Made by a program: the position numbers and the translations under genes
The notes under the pieces: generated by a model
What the model saw: the letters and a program-made list of their open reading frames with translations, nothing else
The model's database searches: none
Told to the model about the DNA's origin: nothing
Shown here: piece after piece, positions 7,806 to 15,818 of the stretch
Layout of the letters: each line of letters starts with the position of its first letter
Numbering within the stretch: the stretch's first letter is position 1
NCBI RefSeq assembly: GCF_003173615.1
Contig: NZ_QGNA01000002.1
Span: 682,001 to 746,000 of the forward strand
DNA: 64,000 bases
Direction: 5' to 3'
Source: Falsiroseomonas bella
Lineage (GTDB): Bacteria > Pseudomonadota > Alphaproteobacteria > Acetobacterales > Acetobacteraceae

Positions 7806-10800
7806 TCAGGCGGCGTCGGCGCGTTGGGCGCGGTCCTGCCGCAGCAGCGCAACGGCATCGCCGAGCGCGAGAGGCTTGCTGACGAAATAGCCCTGCGCCT
7901 CCGTGCAGCCGGCCGCCTGCACCAGCCGCAGCTGCTCCGCCGTCTCGACGCCCTCGGCCGTGGTGGCGAGGCCGAGCTGCCGGGCCAGGCTGGCGACCGA
8001 GCTCACCACGGCGCGGCAATCGGCGCGGCTGCCGACCTCGGAGACGAAGGACCGGTCGATCTTGATGCGGTCCACCGGCAGGCTCGTCAAATGGCGCAGC
8101 GAGGAGAAGCCCGTGCCGAAGTCGTCCAGCGCGATGGAGACACCCATCGCCTGGAGCTCGCGAAGCACGGCCAGCGCCTCCTCGGATTCCTGCAGCAGCG
8201 CCGTCTCGGTGATCTCCAGCTCGAGCCGCCTCGGATGCAGCCCCGCCGCGCGCAGCGCATCCCCGACGAGCGCGGCGAGCCCCGCGCTGCGGAGCTGCAC
8301 CGGGGAAAGGTTCACCGCCAGCCGCGTCGCGCCCGGCCAGTCCGCCGCCGCCGCACAGGCGTTGCGCAGGATGAGCTCGCCAAGCGGCAGGATGAGCCCG
8401 GTCTCCTCGGCCAGCGGTATGAACTCCGCCGGCGAGACCTGGCCGAGGCCGGGATGCGACCAGCGCACCAGCGCCTCGAAGCCCGCCACGCGCCCGGCGG
8501 CCAGGTCGCGCACCGGCTGGTAGACGAGGCGGATCTGCTCGCGCGCGAGCGCGTCTCGCAGCTCCGCCTCCAGGCCGAGCCGGCGCAGCGCGGCGGAGCC
8601 CATGGCCTGGTCGTAGCGGCAGAAGGTGCCGCGCCCGCGGGCCTTGGCGCGGTAGAGCGCGACATCGGCGTTCTTCAACAGCGCGTCGGCATCCGCCCCG
8701 CCCTCCGCCTCCGCCATGGCGATGCCGATGCTGACGCCGACGGCGGCGCGGCTGCCGGCGATGTCGTAGGGTGCGGCGAGCGTGTCGATGATCCGCCGCG
8801 CCAGCGCCTCGGCGCTTTCCGGCAGGCGCGAGGATCGGTGAAGGATGGCGAATTCGTCGCCGCCGAGCCGGGCGACAAGGTCGCTCTGCCGCACGCACCC
8901 CCGAAGGCGCTGCGCGGCGGAGACCAGCAGCTCGTCGCCCGCCGGATGCCCCAGCGTGTCGTTCACCTGCTTGAAGCGGTCGAGGTCGAGGCAGAGCAGC
9001 GCCACGGATTCGCCCTGCTCGGCCGTTCCCTCCGCCGCTTCCCGGATCGCCTGCTTCAGGCGGTCGCGGAACAGCACGCGGTTCGGCAGATGCGTGAGGG
9101 AATCGTGATGCGCCAGGAAGCGCACCTGCGCCTCCGCATGGGTGCGCTCGGTCGCATCCTCGTAGGTCGCCACCCAGCCGCCGCCGAACATCGGGCGATG
9201 CGCGACGGCGACGGCCCGGTCCGGCGCCTCCACCAGGAAGTCCCCGGCGTCGCCCGCCATGGCGAGCAGGCGCTGGCGCTCATGGATGCTGCGCACCAGC
9301 CGCGCGCGGCGGCCGGCGCGGCCGCGGATCTGCGCGAAGAGATCGTCGAAGCGCGTGCCGGGCGCCGCCGCATCGGGCTCCAGCCCGAAGATCTCGGCGA
9401 AGCGGCGGTTGCACACGATCACGCGGGCATCCGCGCCGACCATGCAGAGGCCCTGGGACATGTTGTCGAGCGCGGCGTGGAAACGCGCACCCTGGATCTG
9501 CGCCTCGGCCGAGGCCTCCTCGGCACGCATGGTCGCCGTGGCGAGGTCGGCCATGGCGCGCTTGATCGGGGTGATGTCGGTGCGGATGCCGACATGCCCG
9601 CCATCCGGCGTCGGGCGCTCGGAGACCAGCAGCCAGCGCCCGTCCGGCAGCAACCGCTCCAGCGCCGGCGAATCCGCGCGCCGCCAGGCCATGAGCTCGC
9701 GCACGAAGGCCTCCACGTCCGGCCCGCATTGCGGATATTGGCCGCGCAAGGCGCCGCCGCGCAGCACCTCCACGAAGGGCATGCCGGGCACGAGGAACTC
9801 CGCGCTGGCCGCGTAGAGTTCGCGATAGCGGCTGTTGCAGGTGACCAGCCGGTCCTCGGCATCCCACATCACGAAACCGTCCGGCATCGCCTCGATCGCG
9901 TTGTCCAGCACGGCGCGGGCGCGGGCGCGCTCCGCTTCCATCCGCTCGCGCTGGCGCAGCGCGATGTCCATCGCCACGGCCAGGCAGATCACCAGCGCCG
10001 CCGCGCCGGCCAGCACGATCGCCAGCCACCGGCGGTCGCGCTGCCAGTCGGCGAGCGCATCGCCCACGGTGCGCGTGAGCCGAAGCTGGATCCCGCGATA
10101 CAATGCGCTGCGCACCACCTCGATCGTCGCACCTCCGGCGCTTGCGGTCTGGAAGGCGACGCCGTCGCTGCGGAACCCCGCGGGCCGCGGCGAGACGCGG
10201 CCCACCCCGGCCTCGTCATGCGGCACGCTGGCAAGCAGGCTGCCATCGGTGCGCTCGACGAGGATGCGCACATTCGCCGCATCGCCCATCGGCGTCAGCA
10301 GCCCGGTGATCAGCTGCACCGGAACCTCCACCGCCGCGACGATCCGTCCCTGCCCCGGCAGGCGCAGCGGCCGCGTGAAGAACAGCGACCACTCGGAGGT
10401 CTGCGGGTTGCGCACCGGCCCGATCACGGTAAGCGTGCCGGCAACGGGTGGTGCCTCCAGCAGCCGGGCCTCCAGCGGCAGGCCGGCCTGCCGCGTGGAG
10501 GAGAGCGAGGATGCCCAGACCGCGCCGCCAGGCTTCACGAGCAGCACGTCGCGGAACACGAGGTTCTGCACGTTCAGGTCGCGCAGCACCGCATTCGCCA
10601 CCGATGCGTCAAGAGGCTGGATTCCCGCTGCGGTGCGCAGCAGCGCCGGCAGGCCAGCCAGCGTGCTGTCCACCTGCAGGATGTGCCGGTTGACCGCCGC
10701 CTCCGCTGCGCGGGCCGCCTGTTCCAGGCCCTCGGTGGCCGCCGTGGTGGCAGCGCTGCGCATGCGGTCCGTCAGCAGCGCCGCGCCCGCGGCCATCGCG

Positions 10801-10856
10801 AGCAGCAGCAGCCCGACGGAGAGGCGGAGCCCAACGCGCAGGCGTCGGGACGACAT
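7806..10856 (-). CDS. Membrane-anchored PAS-PAS-GGDEF-EAL cyclic-di-GMP protein
   Basis: 1016 residues. A membrane segment at about 12-28 is followed by a periplasmic sensor domain (about 30-275) and a second membrane segment at 277-300. Then come two PAS-like domains (about 315-435 and 455-575), a GGDEF domain and an EAL domain. The cyclase site is intact (GGDEF at 665-669) and an RxxD inhibitory site lies five residues before it (R656-D659). The phosphodiesterase domain keeps E794 (EAL), N849, E884, D911/D912, K932 and E968, so both activities may be present. The start lies 8 bp after the stop of a TRAP-type solute-binding protein gene. This suggests that a periplasmic ligand sensed by that receptor controls c-di-GMP levels; the link is inferred. 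Confidence 0.92.
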   Translation of the reverse strand: MSSRRLRVGLRLSVGLLLLAMAAGAALLTDRMRSAATTAATEGLEQAARAAEAAVNRHILQVDSTLAGLPALLRTAAGIQPLDASVANAVLRDLNVQNLVFRDVLLVKPGGAVWASSLSSTRQAGLPLEARLLEAPPVAGTLTVIGPVRNPQTSEWSLFFTRPLRLPGQGRIVAAVEVPVQLITGLLTPMGDAANVRILVERTDGSLLASVPHDEAGVGRVSPRPAGFRSDGVAFQTASAGGATIEVVRSALYRGIQLRLTRTVGDALADWQRDRRWLAIVLAGAAALVICLAVAMDIALRQRERMEAERARARAVLDNAIEAMPDGFVMWDAEDRLVTCNSRYRELYAASAEFLVPGMPFVEVLRGGALRGQYPQCGPDVEAFVRELMAWRRADSPALERLLPDGRWLLVSERPTPDGGHVGIRTDITPIKRAMADLATATMRAEEASAEAQIQGARFHAALDNMSQGLCMVGADARVIVCNRRFAEIFGLEPDAAAPGTRFDDLFAQIRGRAGRRARLVRSIHERQRLLAMAGDAGDFLVEAPDRAVAVAHRPMFGGGWVATYEDATERTHAEAQVRFLAHHDSLTHLPNRVLFRDRLKQAIREAAEGTAEQGESVALLCLDLDRFKQVNDTLGHPAGDELLVSAAQRLRGCVRQSDLVARLGGDEFAILHRSSRLPESAEALARRIIDTLAAPYDIAGSRAAVGVSIGIAMAEAEGGADADALLKNADVALYRAKARGRGTFCRYDQAMGSAALRRLGLEAELRDALAREQIRLVYQPVRDLAAGRVAGFEALVRWSHPGLGQVSPAEFIPLAEETGLILPLGELILRNACAAAADWPGATRLAVNLSPVQLRSAGLAALVGDALRAAGLHPRRLELEITETALLQESEEALAVLRELQAMGVSIALDDFGTGFSSLRHLTSLPVDRIKIDRSFVSEVGSRADCRAVVSSVASLARQLGLATTAEGVETAEQLRLVQAAGCTEAQGYFVSKPLALGDAVALLRQDRAQRADAA

Positions 10857-10864
10857 GGCCTGCG

Positions 10865-11971
10865 CTACTCGCTCCGCACGGCCGCGATGCCGGGGGCGCC
10901 GGCGCCGATCCGTCCCCAGGCCTCGGCGCAGGCCGGGCCGCACCGGCGGATCCAGGACGGCACGACGGTTCGCGCGAGCAGGTCGCGCCGCAGCGCCTCG
11001 TCCGCCGCGCTCGGCTCGACCACCGCCATCCGGCCGGGCCGGCCTTGCCGGCAGGATGGAAGCCCGGCGTTGCAGGCGAGACCGTCCTCTGTCTCCTCGC
11101 CGGCCGCCGTCCAGATCTCCCGCTCGAGTTCCACGATGCCGGCGCGCAGCGGTTCCCGCACCGCCTCGGGCAGCGCTTCCCAGGCGTCCAGGTTGGCGCC
11201 GAACACGGACAGGCCCCAGCTGATGGCCTGCCGCGAGACATGCGTCGCGACCTCGTGCAGGCCGATGGCGTTGCCCGAGAGCGTGCCGGTGATCGCGCAA
11301 TTGACCACGCCGCTGCGCACCGCCGCGACCACCTCCGCGAAGGGAATGACGACGGGCGTGCCGCCCAGCGCCGTGACCAGTTCCGACTGCCCGACGGAGG
11401 AGGTGCGCACGCGCCGGCCCGACAGCTCCGTCAGTCCCGAGAAGGCCTGCCGGCACCACACGACCTGCGCCGGATAGGTGAAGACGGCGAGCAGTTCCAC
11501 GCCGTAGCGCTCGCGCAGCAGCGCCTCCAGATGCGGTCGCCAGCGTGCGACAGTGGCGCGCAGCGTCTCGATGTCCGGGCTGGCGCCCGGCAGGTCCATG
11601 GCGTTCAGCTCCGGCTCCTCCGCGGCGGCGAGGCCGAGCAGCACGCTGCCGAAGGGGACGACGCCGAGGCGCATCAGCGGCAGCATCTCCTGCCCGCGGA
11701 TGCCGCGCCGGTCGAAGGGCGCGATGTCGGCCCGCAGCCGGCCGCCGGTGATCTCCGGCACGCGCCGGGTCCAGAAGGGCTCCTCGTAGCGCGTGTACTG
11801 CACGACGCTGGCCAGGCCGCCGACCACCTCGATCTGGATCGGTGTCTCCGCGGCGGCGGGGCCGGGGCCCAGCGCGAGCCAGCCGGCGGCAGCCATCGCC
11901 GCCAGGCCCCTCAGCCAGCCCGACGGCCCCGCCGGAATCCCTGCGCGATCTTCCTGTCCGCGACACGACAT
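10865..11971 (-). CDS. TRAP transporter DctP-type solute-binding protein
   Basis: 368 residues from the ATG at 11971, with GGGAG 10 nt upstream. The N-terminus has an arginine-bearing leader and a hydrophobic core (WLRGLAAMAAAGWLALGPG) ending AAA before ETPIQIEVVG, a signal peptide. The body is DctP-like: YPAQVVWCRQAFSGLTELSG, RRVRTSSVGQSELVTALGGT and VIPFAEVVAAVRSGVVN are the usual lobe-hinge motifs. It should bind an organic acid in the periplasm. No TRAP permease genes (DctQ/DctM) are near. Instead the next gene, 8 bp away, is the GGDEF/EAL protein. It may therefore work as a sensory receptor rather than for uptake. The C-terminus carries several unusual Cys residues (CNAGLPSC, RRCGPAC). 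Confidence 0.82.
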   Translation of the reverse strand: MSCRGQEDRAGIPAGPSGWLRGLAAMAAAGWLALGPGPAAAETPIQIEVVGGLASVVQYTRYEEPFWTRRVPEITGGRLRADIAPFDRRGIRGQEMLPLMRLGVVPFGSVLLGLAAAEEPELNAMDLPGASPDIETLRATVARWRPHLEALLRERYGVELLAVFTYPAQVVWCRQAFSGLTELSGRRVRTSSVGQSELVTALGGTPVVIPFAEVVAAVRSGVVNCAITGTLSGNAIGLHEVATHVSRQAISWGLSVFGANLDAWEALPEAVREPLRAGIVELEREIWTAAGEETEDGLACNAGLPSCRQGRPGRMAVVEPSAADEALRRDLLARTVVPSWIRRCGPACAEAWGRIGAGAPGIAAVRSE

Positions 11972-12120: not shown

Positions 12121-13062
12121 ATGCTGCGACGGCTCGGCGCGATCTGCGCGATGCTTGGTCTGATGAGCGGCGCCGCCATGGCGCAGGGCTGGCAGCCCAC
12201 GCGCCCCATCGAGATCGTGGTGCCCTTCACCGCCGGCTCGCTGGCCGACCGCAACATGCGCGCGGCCGCGCCGCTGCTCTCGCGCGAGCTCGGCGTGCCG
12301 GTCGCGGTGCAGAACGTGCCCGGCGCGACCGGCTACAACCGGATCTACCGCGCAGCGCCCGATGGCCACACGCTGGGCGCGGGCGATCCCGTGGCGCAGA
12401 TGGGCCTGCAGGTCGTGCAACCGCAGCCCTTCGACGTGCTGCGCCTGACCTGGCTCGGCCACTGGTCGGCCGGCACCCAGACCATGGTCGCCTCGGCGCG
12501 CGGCCGTGTGCAGGGGCTCGAGCAGCTGCGCGGGATGCGCCAGCCGGTACGCTGCGGGACCTTCGGCGGCATCTCCACCGGCGCGATGCAATGCGCGCTG
12601 CTCGGCCGCGTCTTCGGCTTCCCGGTGGCCTTCGTTTCGGTGCAGGGCCCGCCGGAGCTGGTGCTGGCCGCGGTGCGCGGCGACGTGGACCTCGCCTCGC
12701 TTGGTCCCTCGCTCTGGACGCAGCACATCAGCGCGGGCGCGGTGCGTCCGATCCTATCCTGGGACGCCGAGCGCGACGACCGCCTGCCGGACGTGCCGGC
12801 GCTGAAGGACATCAACCTGGCGAACCTGGCGGACGTCACGGTGATCCGCGGCGTCGCCGCGCCGCCCGAGCTGCCGGCGGCGATCCGGGACCGGCTGATC
12901 GCCGCGCTGAACACCGTGGTGAAACAGCCGGAATGGGAGGCCTTCGTCGCCCAGTCGCGGCTGGAGCGGAACTGGGTGTTCTCCGCCGACTATCCGGCTT
13001 CGCTCGGCCGTGCGCAGCAGCTTCTGCAGGAGAATGCGGCGACGCTGCGCGGCGCCTTCTGA
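12121..13062 (+). CDS. Bug/TctC-family tripartite tricarboxylate transporter receptor
   Basis: 313 residues. A signal peptide (MLRRLGAICAMLGLMSGAAMA) precedes QGWQPTRPIEIVVPFTAGS, the canonical opening of Bug receptors. VQNVPGATGYNRIYRAAPDGHTL, then FGGISTGAMQCALLG and VRGDVDLASLGPSLW are family motifs. It binds a carboxylated solute in the periplasm. Unlike the other Bug genes here it heads a complete transporter operon: its stop overlaps the next gene (TGATG) and a TctA-TctB fusion follows. A ribosome site (GGGAG) precedes the ATG. The ligand is unknown; the co-encoded AMDase-like enzyme hints at a malonate- or maleate-like substrate. Confidence 0.9.
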   Translation: MLRRLGAICAMLGLMSGAAMAQGWQPTRPIEIVVPFTAGSLADRNMRAAAPLLSRELGVPVAVQNVPGATGYNRIYRAAPDGHTLGAGDPVAQMGLQVVQPQPFDVLRLTWLGHWSAGTQTMVASARGRVQGLEQLRGMRQPVRCGTFGGISTGAMQCALLGRVFGFPVAFVSVQGPPELVLAAVRGDVDLASLGPSLWTQHISAGAVRPILSWDAERDDRLPDVPALKDINLANLADVTVIRGVAAPPELPAAIRDRLIAALNTVVKQPEWEAFVAQSRLERNWVFSADYPASLGRAQQLLQENAATLRGAF

Positions 13063-13808
13063 TGGCCGCGCCCACCCTGCTGCTGCCGGGCTGGCGCGCG
13101 CGCATCGGCGTGATCAGCCCGACGGTGCTGGAGCGCATCCCGCTCGACTTCCACCGCATCGCGCCGGAGGGCGCGATGCTTTGCGGCGTAACCTGCGGCA
13201 TGGGCGGCTGGGCGGCGAACCAGTACGGACAGGCGCTGGCCCAGGTGAAGGACGCGGCGCGTTACCTCGCCGCCCGCAAGGTGGATTTTTTGCTTCATGT
13301 CGCCTCGCCGATCGTGGTGGCGCAGGGGCCGGGGTATGATCGCGTGCTGCTGGCGGAACTTGCCGAGGCGACCGGCGGCATTCCCTGCACCACGACGATC
13401 CGCGCCGCGCTGGACGCCTTCGCGCTGCTCGGCGCGAAGCGCATCCTGGCCGTCACGCCTTTCCACGAGGTGCTGAACGGTCAGTTGCGGACCTTCGTGG
13501 AGGCCGAGGGCTACGCCTTCTCCCGCCTGGTGTCCGTGCCGGCCTCCTTCGACTTCCTGCAGGACGTCGCGCCCGACGCGCTGTTCCGCGCGGCGCTGGC
13601 CGCGGCCGCCGAGGAACCGGACTTCGACGTGGTGTGGATCCCGTCGGGCCAACTGCCGGCGGTCGAGGTCGTGCTGCCGCTGGAGGCGCGGCTGAACAAG
13701 CCCGTGGTCGCGCAGAACCACGCCGACTTCCTCGCCGCCTTCCGCGCGCTGGGTCTCACCGGCATTCCGCGCGGGCACGGCATGCTGCTCGACCGCGGCG
13801 CGGGCTGA
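13062..13808 (+). CDS. Asp/Glu racemase superfamily protein, arylmalonate decarboxylase/maleate isomerase-like
   Basis: 248 residues. The ATG overlaps the TctC stop by one base. The fold signature is clear: RIGVISPTVLERIPLDFHRI, CGVTCGMGG, DFLLHVASPIVVAQGPG, GGIPCTTTIRAALDAFALLG, and a C-terminal KPVVAQNHADFLAAFRALGL. These align by eye with arylmalonate decarboxylases and maleate isomerases. The late motif that carries the catalytic Cys in that family (SCGGL-like) reads IPSGQL here, so Ser195 stands where Cys is expected. C109 is retained. It may be a divergent decarboxylase/isomerase or a non-racemising relative. Its place between receptor and permease genes implies action on the imported acid. 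Confidence 0.75.
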   Translation: MAAPTLLLPGWRARIGVISPTVLERIPLDFHRIAPEGAMLCGVTCGMGGWAANQYGQALAQVKDAARYLAARKVDFLLHVASPIVVAQGPGYDRVLLAELAEATGGIPCTTTIRAALDAFALLGAKRILAVTPFHEVLNGQLRTFVEAEGYAFSRLVSVPASFDFLQDVAPDALFRAALAAAAEEPDFDVVWIPSGQLPAVEVVLPLEARLNKPVVAQNHADFLAAFRALGLTGIPRGHGMLLDRGAG

Positions 13809-13814
13809 GGCGGC

Positions 13815-15818
13815 GTGGAGGGACTCGCCGCGGCGCTGGCCGAGGGCTTCGCGCAGGCCACCACGCTGGACGCGCTGCTGTTCATGGCCTTCGGCACGCT
13901 GGTCGGCTACGGCTTCGGCATCCTGCCGGGGCTGCAATCGGTCACGGCCATGTCCGTGTTCCTGCCGCTGACCTATTGGTGGACGCCGGTGCAGGCGATG
14001 TATTTCTTCGCCGGCATCATCGGCGCGGCGGGCAATGGCGGCGCGGTCACGGCCATCGTGCTGAACATCCCCGGCACCGCGCAGAACGCCGCGACGATGC
14101 TGGAAGGCTACCCGCTGACGAAGCAGGGCAGGGCGGTCTTCGCCCTGAACCTCTCGGCCGCGGCAAGCTGGCTCGGCGCCGTCTTCGGCGTGGTGGTGCT
14201 GCTCGCGCTCGTGCCGGTCTTCCTGCCCTTCCTGATCTCCTTCGGCCCGGCCGAGACCTTCTGGGTCGCGGTGTTCGGGCTGGTGACGATGGTGCTGGCG
14301 GTCAGCGGATCGCCCGCCAAGGGGCTGGTCGCGATCGCCGTCGGCGTCGTGCTCGCCATCGTCGGCATGGGCGGGCCGCGCCTGCCGGTGCCGCGCTTCA
14401 CCTTCGACAGCACCTACCTGCTCGACGGCATCGAGATCGTCGTCGTCGTCATCGGCTTCCTCGTCGTCTCCGAATGCCTGCTGCAGGTCGCCGGCGTCTG
14501 GGCACGCGGGCGGGAGGCAGGGCAGGTGACGCGCGCCGCGCCCGCGGTGGGCGACGATTGGAAGCAGCAGGCGCTGGATGGCTGGCGCGCGCCCTTCCGG
14601 CACAAGGGGATCTTCCTGCGCTCCTCGGCGCTCGGCACCGCGGTCGGCGCGCTGCCGGGCGTGGGCGGCACCGTGGCGCAGTTCCTGTCCTACAACCTCG
14701 CCGTCGCCACCACGAAGGACGGCGAGAAGATCGGCAAGGGCGCCGAGGACGCGCTGGTCGCCACCGAGGCCGCGACCAATTCGAAGGAAGGCGGCGCGCT
14801 GTTCCCCACGCTGCTCTTCGGCATCCCCGGCAATGCCGAGATGGCGCTGGTTCTCGCGGCCTGGCAGATCCATGGGCTGGAGCCCGGCCCCGCCTTCCTG
14901 TCGCAGCATGGCGCGCTGGCCTGGGCGCTGGTGTTCGGGCTGCTGTTCTCCAATTTCATCGCCTCCATCGGCACGGCGCTGGCCAGCCCCTGGCTCGCCC
15001 GGCTGCCGGGCTTCGACATGGGCGTGCTCGCGCCGGTCGTGCTGGTCGCGTCGCTCATGTCGGCCTTCACCGTGCGCGGCAACGCCGTGGACCTCGCCGC
15101 GCTGGCCGCCATCGGGCTGCTGGGCGCGCTGTTCCGGCTCTACGGCTACTCGGTGATTGGCGTCGTGATCGGCTTTGTGCTGGGCGACGTGATCGAGCGC
15201 AATTTCTATACGGCGCTGCAGAGCTCGCTCGGGGACTATTCCGTGCTGGTCGGCTCGCCGGTGGCGGCGGTGTTGGCCGGCGCAACCTTGGTCGCGGCCA
15301 TCTTCTGCGGCGCGAAGGTGCTGCGCGCGAAGCGCGAAGCGGCCGAGGAGGCTGCGTTCTCGCCCGGCGCAGCCGTCTTCGCCGCGCTGCTGCTTGCCGG
15401 GCTCGCCGCGCTGCTCTGGCAGACCCTGGGGAGCGGCTGGCGCGGCGGGCCGGTCGCGACGGGCGTGCTGTCGCTCGCGGTCGCGCTGCAGCTCTTCGTG
15501 CTCGCCACCACCCTCGGCGGGCTGCGGCGCGTTTCCGTGCCGGATGCGGCGGCGCTGCTGAAGCTCGCCGCGCTGCTCGTCGCGGCGCTGGCGCTCGCCT
15601 TCTGGCTCGGCTTCGTCCTGGCCATGGCGGCCTTCCTGCTCGCCTTCTGGCTGGGCGTGCACCGCATGAAGGCCACGCGCGCGCTGCCACTGGCGCTGCT
15701 CTTCGCCGTCGCACTGCCCTGGGCCTTCTCCTGGCTGGTCGAGGCCCCGCTCTGGCGCGGCGTCGTGGCGCCGCTGGTGCCGGGCCTGGTCGGCGGGGAC
15801 GTCGCGCCGCCGCTGTAG
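13815..15818 (+). CDS. Tripartite tricarboxylate transporter permease, TctA-TctB fusion
   Basis: 667 residues from a GTG 6 bp after the AMDase-like gene. The first 500 residues are TctA: GYGFGILPGLQSVTAMSVFL, GIIGAAGNGGAVTAIVLNIP, GTAVGALPGVGGTVAQFLSY, TNSKEGGALFPTLLFGIPG and GFVLGDVIERNFYTALQSS are its hallmarks. They lie among about ten membrane helices. After a charged linker (residues 505-518, AKREAAEEAAF) four or five further helices (about 520-655) make a TctB-sized module. TctB is normally a separate small membrane subunit. The operon TctC, enzyme, TctAB should therefore form a complete sodium- or proton-driven importer in the inner membrane. Confidence 0.88.
   Translation: MEGLAAALAEGFAQATTLDALLFMAFGTLVGYGFGILPGLQSVTAMSVFLPLTYWWTPVQAMYFFAGIIGAAGNGGAVTAIVLNIPGTAQNAATMLEGYPLTKQGRAVFALNLSAAASWLGAVFGVVVLLALVPVFLPFLISFGPAETFWVAVFGLVTMVLAVSGSPAKGLVAIAVGVVLAIVGMGGPRLPVPRFTFDSTYLLDGIEIVVVVIGFLVVSECLLQVAGVWARGREAGQVTRAAPAVGDDWKQQALDGWRAPFRHKGIFLRSSALGTAVGALPGVGGTVAQFLSYNLAVATTKDGEKIGKGAEDALVATEAATNSKEGGALFPTLLFGIPGNAEMALVLAAWQIHGLEPGPAFLSQHGALAWALVFGLLFSNFIASIGTALASPWLARLPGFDMGVLAPVVLVASLMSAFTVRGNAVDLAALAAIGLLGALFRLYGYSVIGVVIGFVLGDVIERNFYTALQSSLGDYSVLVGSPVAAVLAGATLVAAIFCGAKVLRAKREAAEEAAFSPGAAVFAALLLAGLAALLWQTLGSGWRGGPVATGVLSLAVALQLFVLATTLGGLRRVSVPDAAALLKLAALLVAALALAFWLGFVLAMAAFLLAFWLGVHRMKATRALPLALLFAVALPWAFSWLVEAPLWRGVVAPLVPGLVGGDVAPPL

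Follow-up and report, generated by a model that had tools for sequence, protein, structure and literature searches.

Binding proteins that act through membrane sensors

Binding proteins activate several receptor types (PMC9602780). In the NspS-MbaA system of Vibrio cholerae and Sinorhizobium meliloti, whether c-di-GMP is made or degraded depends on the binding protein and its ligand state (PMC8967002, PMC9993111). In the ArtI-STM1987 system of Salmonella, the binding protein and a dCACHE_1 domain are both needed to control a c-di-GMP enzyme (PMC8846402). In Bacillus subtilis, a C4-dicarboxylate co-receptor acts together with a sensor kinase in the DctB-DctS-DctA system (PMC6978683). According to a 2022 census of c-di-GMP sensing, periplasmic-binding-protein domains are common among c-di-GMP proteins, but only one such family had been studied (PMC8846402). 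In a search of the literature that mostly covered journals other than subscription ones, we found no report of a DctP receptor paired with a GGDEF/EAL protein.

The window, i.e. the whole stretch of 64,000 nucleotides analyzed here, contains such a pair on its minus strand: the gene at 10865-11971 encodes a DctP-family receptor and is followed by the gene of a membrane dCache-PAS_7-PAS-GGDEF-EAL protein of 1016 residues (7806-10856; Pfam and motifs). As in NspS-MbaA, a periplasmic binding protein and a membrane GGDEF-EAL protein are encoded side by side. However, the genes overlap in NspS-MbaA and are 8 bp apart in the window, and NspS is a PotD-type polyamine-binding protein whereas the window receptor belongs to the TRAP DctP family. 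Furthermore, the window-type module, unlike NspS-MbaA, is also found coupled to a kinase. ArtI-STM1987 differs in receptor family and in output, which in the window is a GGDEF-EAL part placed after two PAS domains. ArtI is the arginine-binding protein of an ABC importer. DctB-DctS-DctA, which is likened to the window pair by role and not by the family of DctB, also requires the transporter DctA and has no c-di-GMP output. Systems of this kind are already known; what is new is that the receptor comes from another family and that different outputs have been exchanged on a common input.

A sequence-only reading of this DNA had proposed a pathway from ligand to c-di-GMP, which is probably correct as far as function is concerned. 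It had missed the precedents NspS-MbaA and ArtI-STM1987, as well as the mostly histidine kinase outputs among the partner proteins. On the basis of sequence and of analogy, we consider, with a probability of roughly 0.75, that the receptor signals through the co-encoded dCache protein and that both constitute a portable input, coupled here to a c-di-GMP output. In the proposed mechanism, the DctP protein would be a dedicated periplasmic signal receptor and no longer a transport subunit. The ligand-bound, lobe-closed receptor would dock on the periplasmic dCache domain and thereby alter the geometry of the linker between TM2 and PAS_7. This change would shift, in a direction that we infer, the balance between c-di-GMP synthesis by the GGDEF domain and breakdown by the EAL domain. 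Both the docking and the shift are expected because of the analogy with NspS-MbaA and with ArtI and the dCACHE_1 domain of STM1987. In most relatives, and at a second locus of the source genome, the same input module would drive a HisKA-HATPase-REC-Hpt hybrid kinase.

If this is true, a TRAP-type receptor driving c-di-GMP adds a large receptor family to c-di-GMP signalling, and the presence in one genome of two pairs that share an input but differ in output offers a direct test of how the signal of a docked receptor passes the membrane. The paired modules would also be ready-made parts for sensor engineering. As the source genome encodes only seven GGDEF proteins, an effect on c-di-GMP should be measurable.

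The receptor belongs to the DctP family

The claim that the first gene encodes a TRAP-type receptor was confirmed by Pfam (DctP, PF03480, E 3.3e-15, 56.6 bits for a cut-off of 23.4), even though this score is the weakest among the 23 DctP matches of the source genome. DctP was the only family found by Pfam on this protein, which is not of the PotD polyamine type. The TAG stop codon lies at 10867-10865, the longest open reading frame extends to 12070, and a signal-peptide-like N-terminal stretch was noted by inspection at about 11971-11849. The AlphaFold2 model (pLDDT 94.4) matched DctP structures, the best being 4n4u, with 2zzv (lactate) and 2pfy (pyroglutamate) also found. Thus, by sequence and by fold, the receptor is a member of solute-binding protein family 7.

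The solved receptors nearest to it are DctP6 and DctP7 of Bordetella pertussis (2pfz, 2pfy) and BB0719 (4n4u); the receptor profile matched 2pfy at E 1.2e-31. These proteins are only about 20% identical to the window receptor, whose subfamily differs from them by six conserved cysteines (C206, C258, C333, C340, C377 and C381 in P0002). The cysteines, which probably form three disulfides, mark a DctP subfamily that includes transport-linked members.

The ligand arginine of the DctP family is kept as R222 (numbering of P0002, counted from 12070) and does not vary among 19 aligned sequences. The other family arginine is replaced throughout the receptor subfamily by an invariant glutamine, Q202, as it is in the pyroglutamate receptor 2pfy; 2pfy and 4n4u both have glutamine where the first family arginine would be. 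Since R222 is kept, the ligand is likely to be a carboxylate, but the pocket differs through Q202. A pyroglutamate specificity carried over from 2pfy was dropped because an identity of only about 20% is too low for such a transfer. Genes for a nucleoside hydrolase, a phosphoribosyltransferase, a dioxygenase and a GDPD protein lie near kinase pairs but seem to reflect local synteny between related genomes, and no ligand was deduced from them.

The sensor protein and its periplasmic domain

The sensor gene starts with an ATG at 10856, beyond a spacer of 8 bp (10857-10864) that follows the receptor stop at 10865 on the same strand, as the sequence-only reading had stated. The encoded protein is arranged in the order TM1, periplasmic domain, TM2, PAS_7, PAS, GGDEF and EAL. 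Pfam detected PAS_7 twice, GGDEF (E 1.7e-47) and EAL (E 6e-74). The PAS_7 domain (residues 321-434; 9555-9896, minus strand, as for all the domains given here) was delimited by Pfam and segment comparison. It is followed by a second PAS domain (about residues 457-565; 9162-9488), which is not common to the kinase partners, by the GGDEF domain (residues 582-743; 8628-9113) and by the EAL domain (residues 764-995; 7872-8567).

The catalytic motifs of both c-di-GMP domains are intact, in agreement with the earlier claim: the I-site RQSD at 656 and GGDEF at 665 in the first, and EAL at 794, N849, EITE at 881, DDFGTG at 911, KID at 932, EGVE at 968 and QGY at 988 in the second. In a variant of the proposed mechanism, the receptor would signal through the sensor in the same way, the GGDEF domain being only a GTP-binding regulator of a pure phosphodiesterase. 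Such behaviour is common among GGDEF-EAL proteins, but the active-site and I-site residues of the GGDEF domain are intact, and we regard this variant as possible, if somewhat unlikely.

The periplasmic domain, which had been estimated at about 245 residues, spans about residues 30-275 by inspection, between hydrophobic helices placed by inspection and by the model at about residues 10-28 and 276-298. The part assigned to the fold by AlphaFold2, Foldseek and profile comparison covers about residues 31-268 (10053-10766). In its model (pLDDT 94, pTM 0.85), a long N-terminal helix leads into a double PAS-like fold. With this model, Foldseek returned 3lif, the extracellular domain of rpHK1S-Z16, as best match and then many dCache domains of chemoreceptors; the profile of the sensor family also matched 3lif (E 3.4e-10), at 16% identity. 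Pfam matched no family, dCache_1 included, on the N-terminal part of the window sensor, and dCache_1 was matched by 10 of 40 members of the sensor family (best E 5.9e-7). The periplasmic part is thus predicted to fold as a double-Cache (dCache) domain.

Kinase and c-di-GMP outputs are exchanged on one input

Most partner proteins are hybrid histidine kinases and not c-di-GMP enzymes. Their usual architecture, according to Pfam, is dCache-PAS_7-HisKA-HATPase-REC, mostly with an additional Hpt domain. At 61 sensor loci (counted with L099 reclassified), 52 outputs were kinases, seven were GGDEF/EAL and two were cut by contig ends. Among 80 genome loci found via the receptor, a set that overlaps the first, 74 sensors could be classified, 72 as kinases and two as GGDEF/EAL. 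Both forms occur in the source genome, one as the window pair and the other as a kinase pair (L056, G000:C11:281000-297000) made of a DctP gene and a dCache-PAS_7-HisKA-HATPase-REC-Hpt hybrid kinase gene. A TRAP permease gene lies about 4 kb from this kinase pair.

When the window protein was compared segment by segment with kinase partners, identities reached 42-47% in the sensor domain, 51-80% in the linker and 59-71% in PAS_7, while no homology was found beyond PAS_7 (about residue 440). Within the source genome, the PAS_7 domain is 60% identical to that of the kinase paralogue, the next match being at most 33%. Since homology runs from the N-terminus through PAS_7 and then ends, the swap point is placed near residue 440. 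As residues 1 to about 440 are homologous in both versions, the receptor with dCache-TM-PAS_7 is, as judged from the protein comparisons, a portable input module on which outputs have been exchanged.

Separate GGDEF/EAL genes were seen beside a kinase pair (L100:1009-3195) and upstream of a pair cut by a contig end (L099:1235-3553), so that kinase versions may also reach c-di-GMP. In Variovorax paradoxus (L052:4013-9989), a 7TMR-DISM GGDEF gene stands immediately before a DctP gene and a GGDEF/EAL gene, and the three, with touching ends, make up a c-di-GMP operon.

The receptor-sensor pair is conserved

In 15 congeneric genomes, 16 sensor matches and 16 close receptors (at least 57% identity) were found, and all 16 were paired, which is more than chance would give. 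Neither a sensor nor a close receptor was found in one congener, G002, so some DctP-sensor pair is kept in 14 of the 15. The survey of gene pairs proposed earlier gave a divided answer: the DctP-sensor pair is strongly conserved, but its c-di-GMP form is rarer, being present in two of the 15 genus genomes and in scattered others.

More widely, a sensor match at E 1e-5 was obtained in 60 of 250 Acetobacteraceae genomes. According to the locus maps, the receptor lies upstream on the same strand in 52 of the 61 sensor loci, with a median gap of 2 bp; 47 of 51 measured gaps are within 30 bp, and values of 0, -1 and -4 are common. In two loci, both of the GGDEF/EAL type (L089, L090), the receptor is nearby in divergent orientation, outside the operon. 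No nearby DctP gene was found in the remaining seven, some of which are at contig ends; these loci, like the two with a divergent receptor, count against the proposed mechanism. Sensors lacking DctP showed no consistent substitute receptor candidate upstream. At L101 (3433-8180), a sensor-kinase gene without DctP has a TctC receptor gene two genes upstream, possibly an exchange of receptor type. No other genes are as widely shared among the mapped loci as those of the receptor and the sensor.

Outside the Acetobacteraceae, a further three families of Alphaproteobacteria have such pairs (L228, L229, L230), and so do Variovorax and another member of the Comamonadaceae, in which the two genes overlap by 4 bp or are separated by 32 bp; Azospirillum canadense carries a kinase pair (L218). 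Over 50 pairs, the distances between receptors are correlated with those between sensors (r 0.88), partly through species phylogeny, and this mirror-tree correlation was given little weight because of that confounding.

The conservation of the pair bears on a different role of the receptor, in which the dCache domain binds a small ligand of its own and the DctP protein is merely co-expressed, for example to buffer or deliver that compound. Most solved dCache domains resembling the window sensor do bind small molecules directly. However, receptor and sensor have remained together in several families, whichever of the two kinds of output is attached, and mean column identity is lower for the sensor (48%, alignment A2) than for the receptor (54%, alignment A3). 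Amino-acid dCache domains carry an RxWY-type signature, and none was seen by eye in the sensor alignment. We thus hold it improbable that the sensor works from its own ligand.

The receptor lineage is separate from transport-linked DctP proteins

The receptor tree unites sensor-linked receptors with orphan ones in a single clade (support 99) and keeps the permease-linked DctP proteins outside it, which fits the earlier idea of a captured transport receptor. The window receptor groups (support 96) with receptors from other genera, both kinase-linked and orphan, and not beside the kinase pair of its own genus. In the sensor tree, the window sensor is also nearest to those genera, with weaker support. 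A single origin of the GGDEF/EAL form within Acetobacteraceae was not rejected by the AU test (p 0.71 for the sensor, 0.14 for the receptor). When the Comamonadaceae were included, a single origin was rejected by the receptor only (p 0.028), the sensor giving p 0.425.

At L076-L088 and L091-L097, there are orphan DctP genes that have no sensor or permease nearby and belong to this clade or to neighbouring ones. Belnapia-type genomes contain up to seven DctP proteins of the receptor's group, which suggests that several receptors feed one sensor. A GNAT gene near the window pair is met again at L090 and L134, a hint that these loci share an old block.

On the locus map, no DctQ or DctM homologue was found near the window pair, as had been claimed, so the receptor is not encoded alongside the subunits of a working TRAP transporter. 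It could nevertheless feed a TRAP permease encoded elsewhere, its operon position being a matter of regulation. The source genome has 23 DctP and 26 DctM matches, and comparison of their coordinates, including those of TAXI-receptor (PF16868) matches, left two permeases with no receptor beside them: one is a DctQM (C1:608819), the other is of a fused type (C9:30626). The existence of this DctQM, together with that of other orphan DctP genes in these genomes, speaks for a remote permease. Against it, the receptorless DctQM is present in 15 of 15 congeners at 88-100% identity, among them 13 without a window-type pair and G002, which has no pair at all; being kept where the pair is absent, it is independent of the window receptor. 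The separation of the receptor clade from permease-linked DctP proteins points in the same direction. A remote permease served by this receptor, which the earlier reading had named as a refuting find, is accordingly very improbable. In the source genome, the receptorless DctQM adjoins genes that resemble Hyf genes by eye (L138, G000:C1:603000-616000).

Beyond the function of the window pair, a wider history can be proposed, to which we give even odds. A DctP lineage would have left transport to become the sensing half of a modular system, in which one input is exchanged between phosphorelay kinases and c-di-GMP enzymes, both in the same cell; the sensorless DctP proteins of the same clade would possibly report other ligands to the same sensors.

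Neighbouring genes

A scan for promoters and terminators found nothing. Divergently from the receptor gene, a TTT operon (12121-15818, plus strand), which is not part of the pair, starts with a TctC-type receptor gene (12121-13062) and continues with a gene resembling Asp/Glu racemases by eye and a long TctA-type permease gene (13815-15818, 667 residues), which may include a fused TctB as its C-terminal part. This operon also adjoins the pair in G008, with synteny over the whole region, and it is possibly a co-regulated neighbour of the pair.
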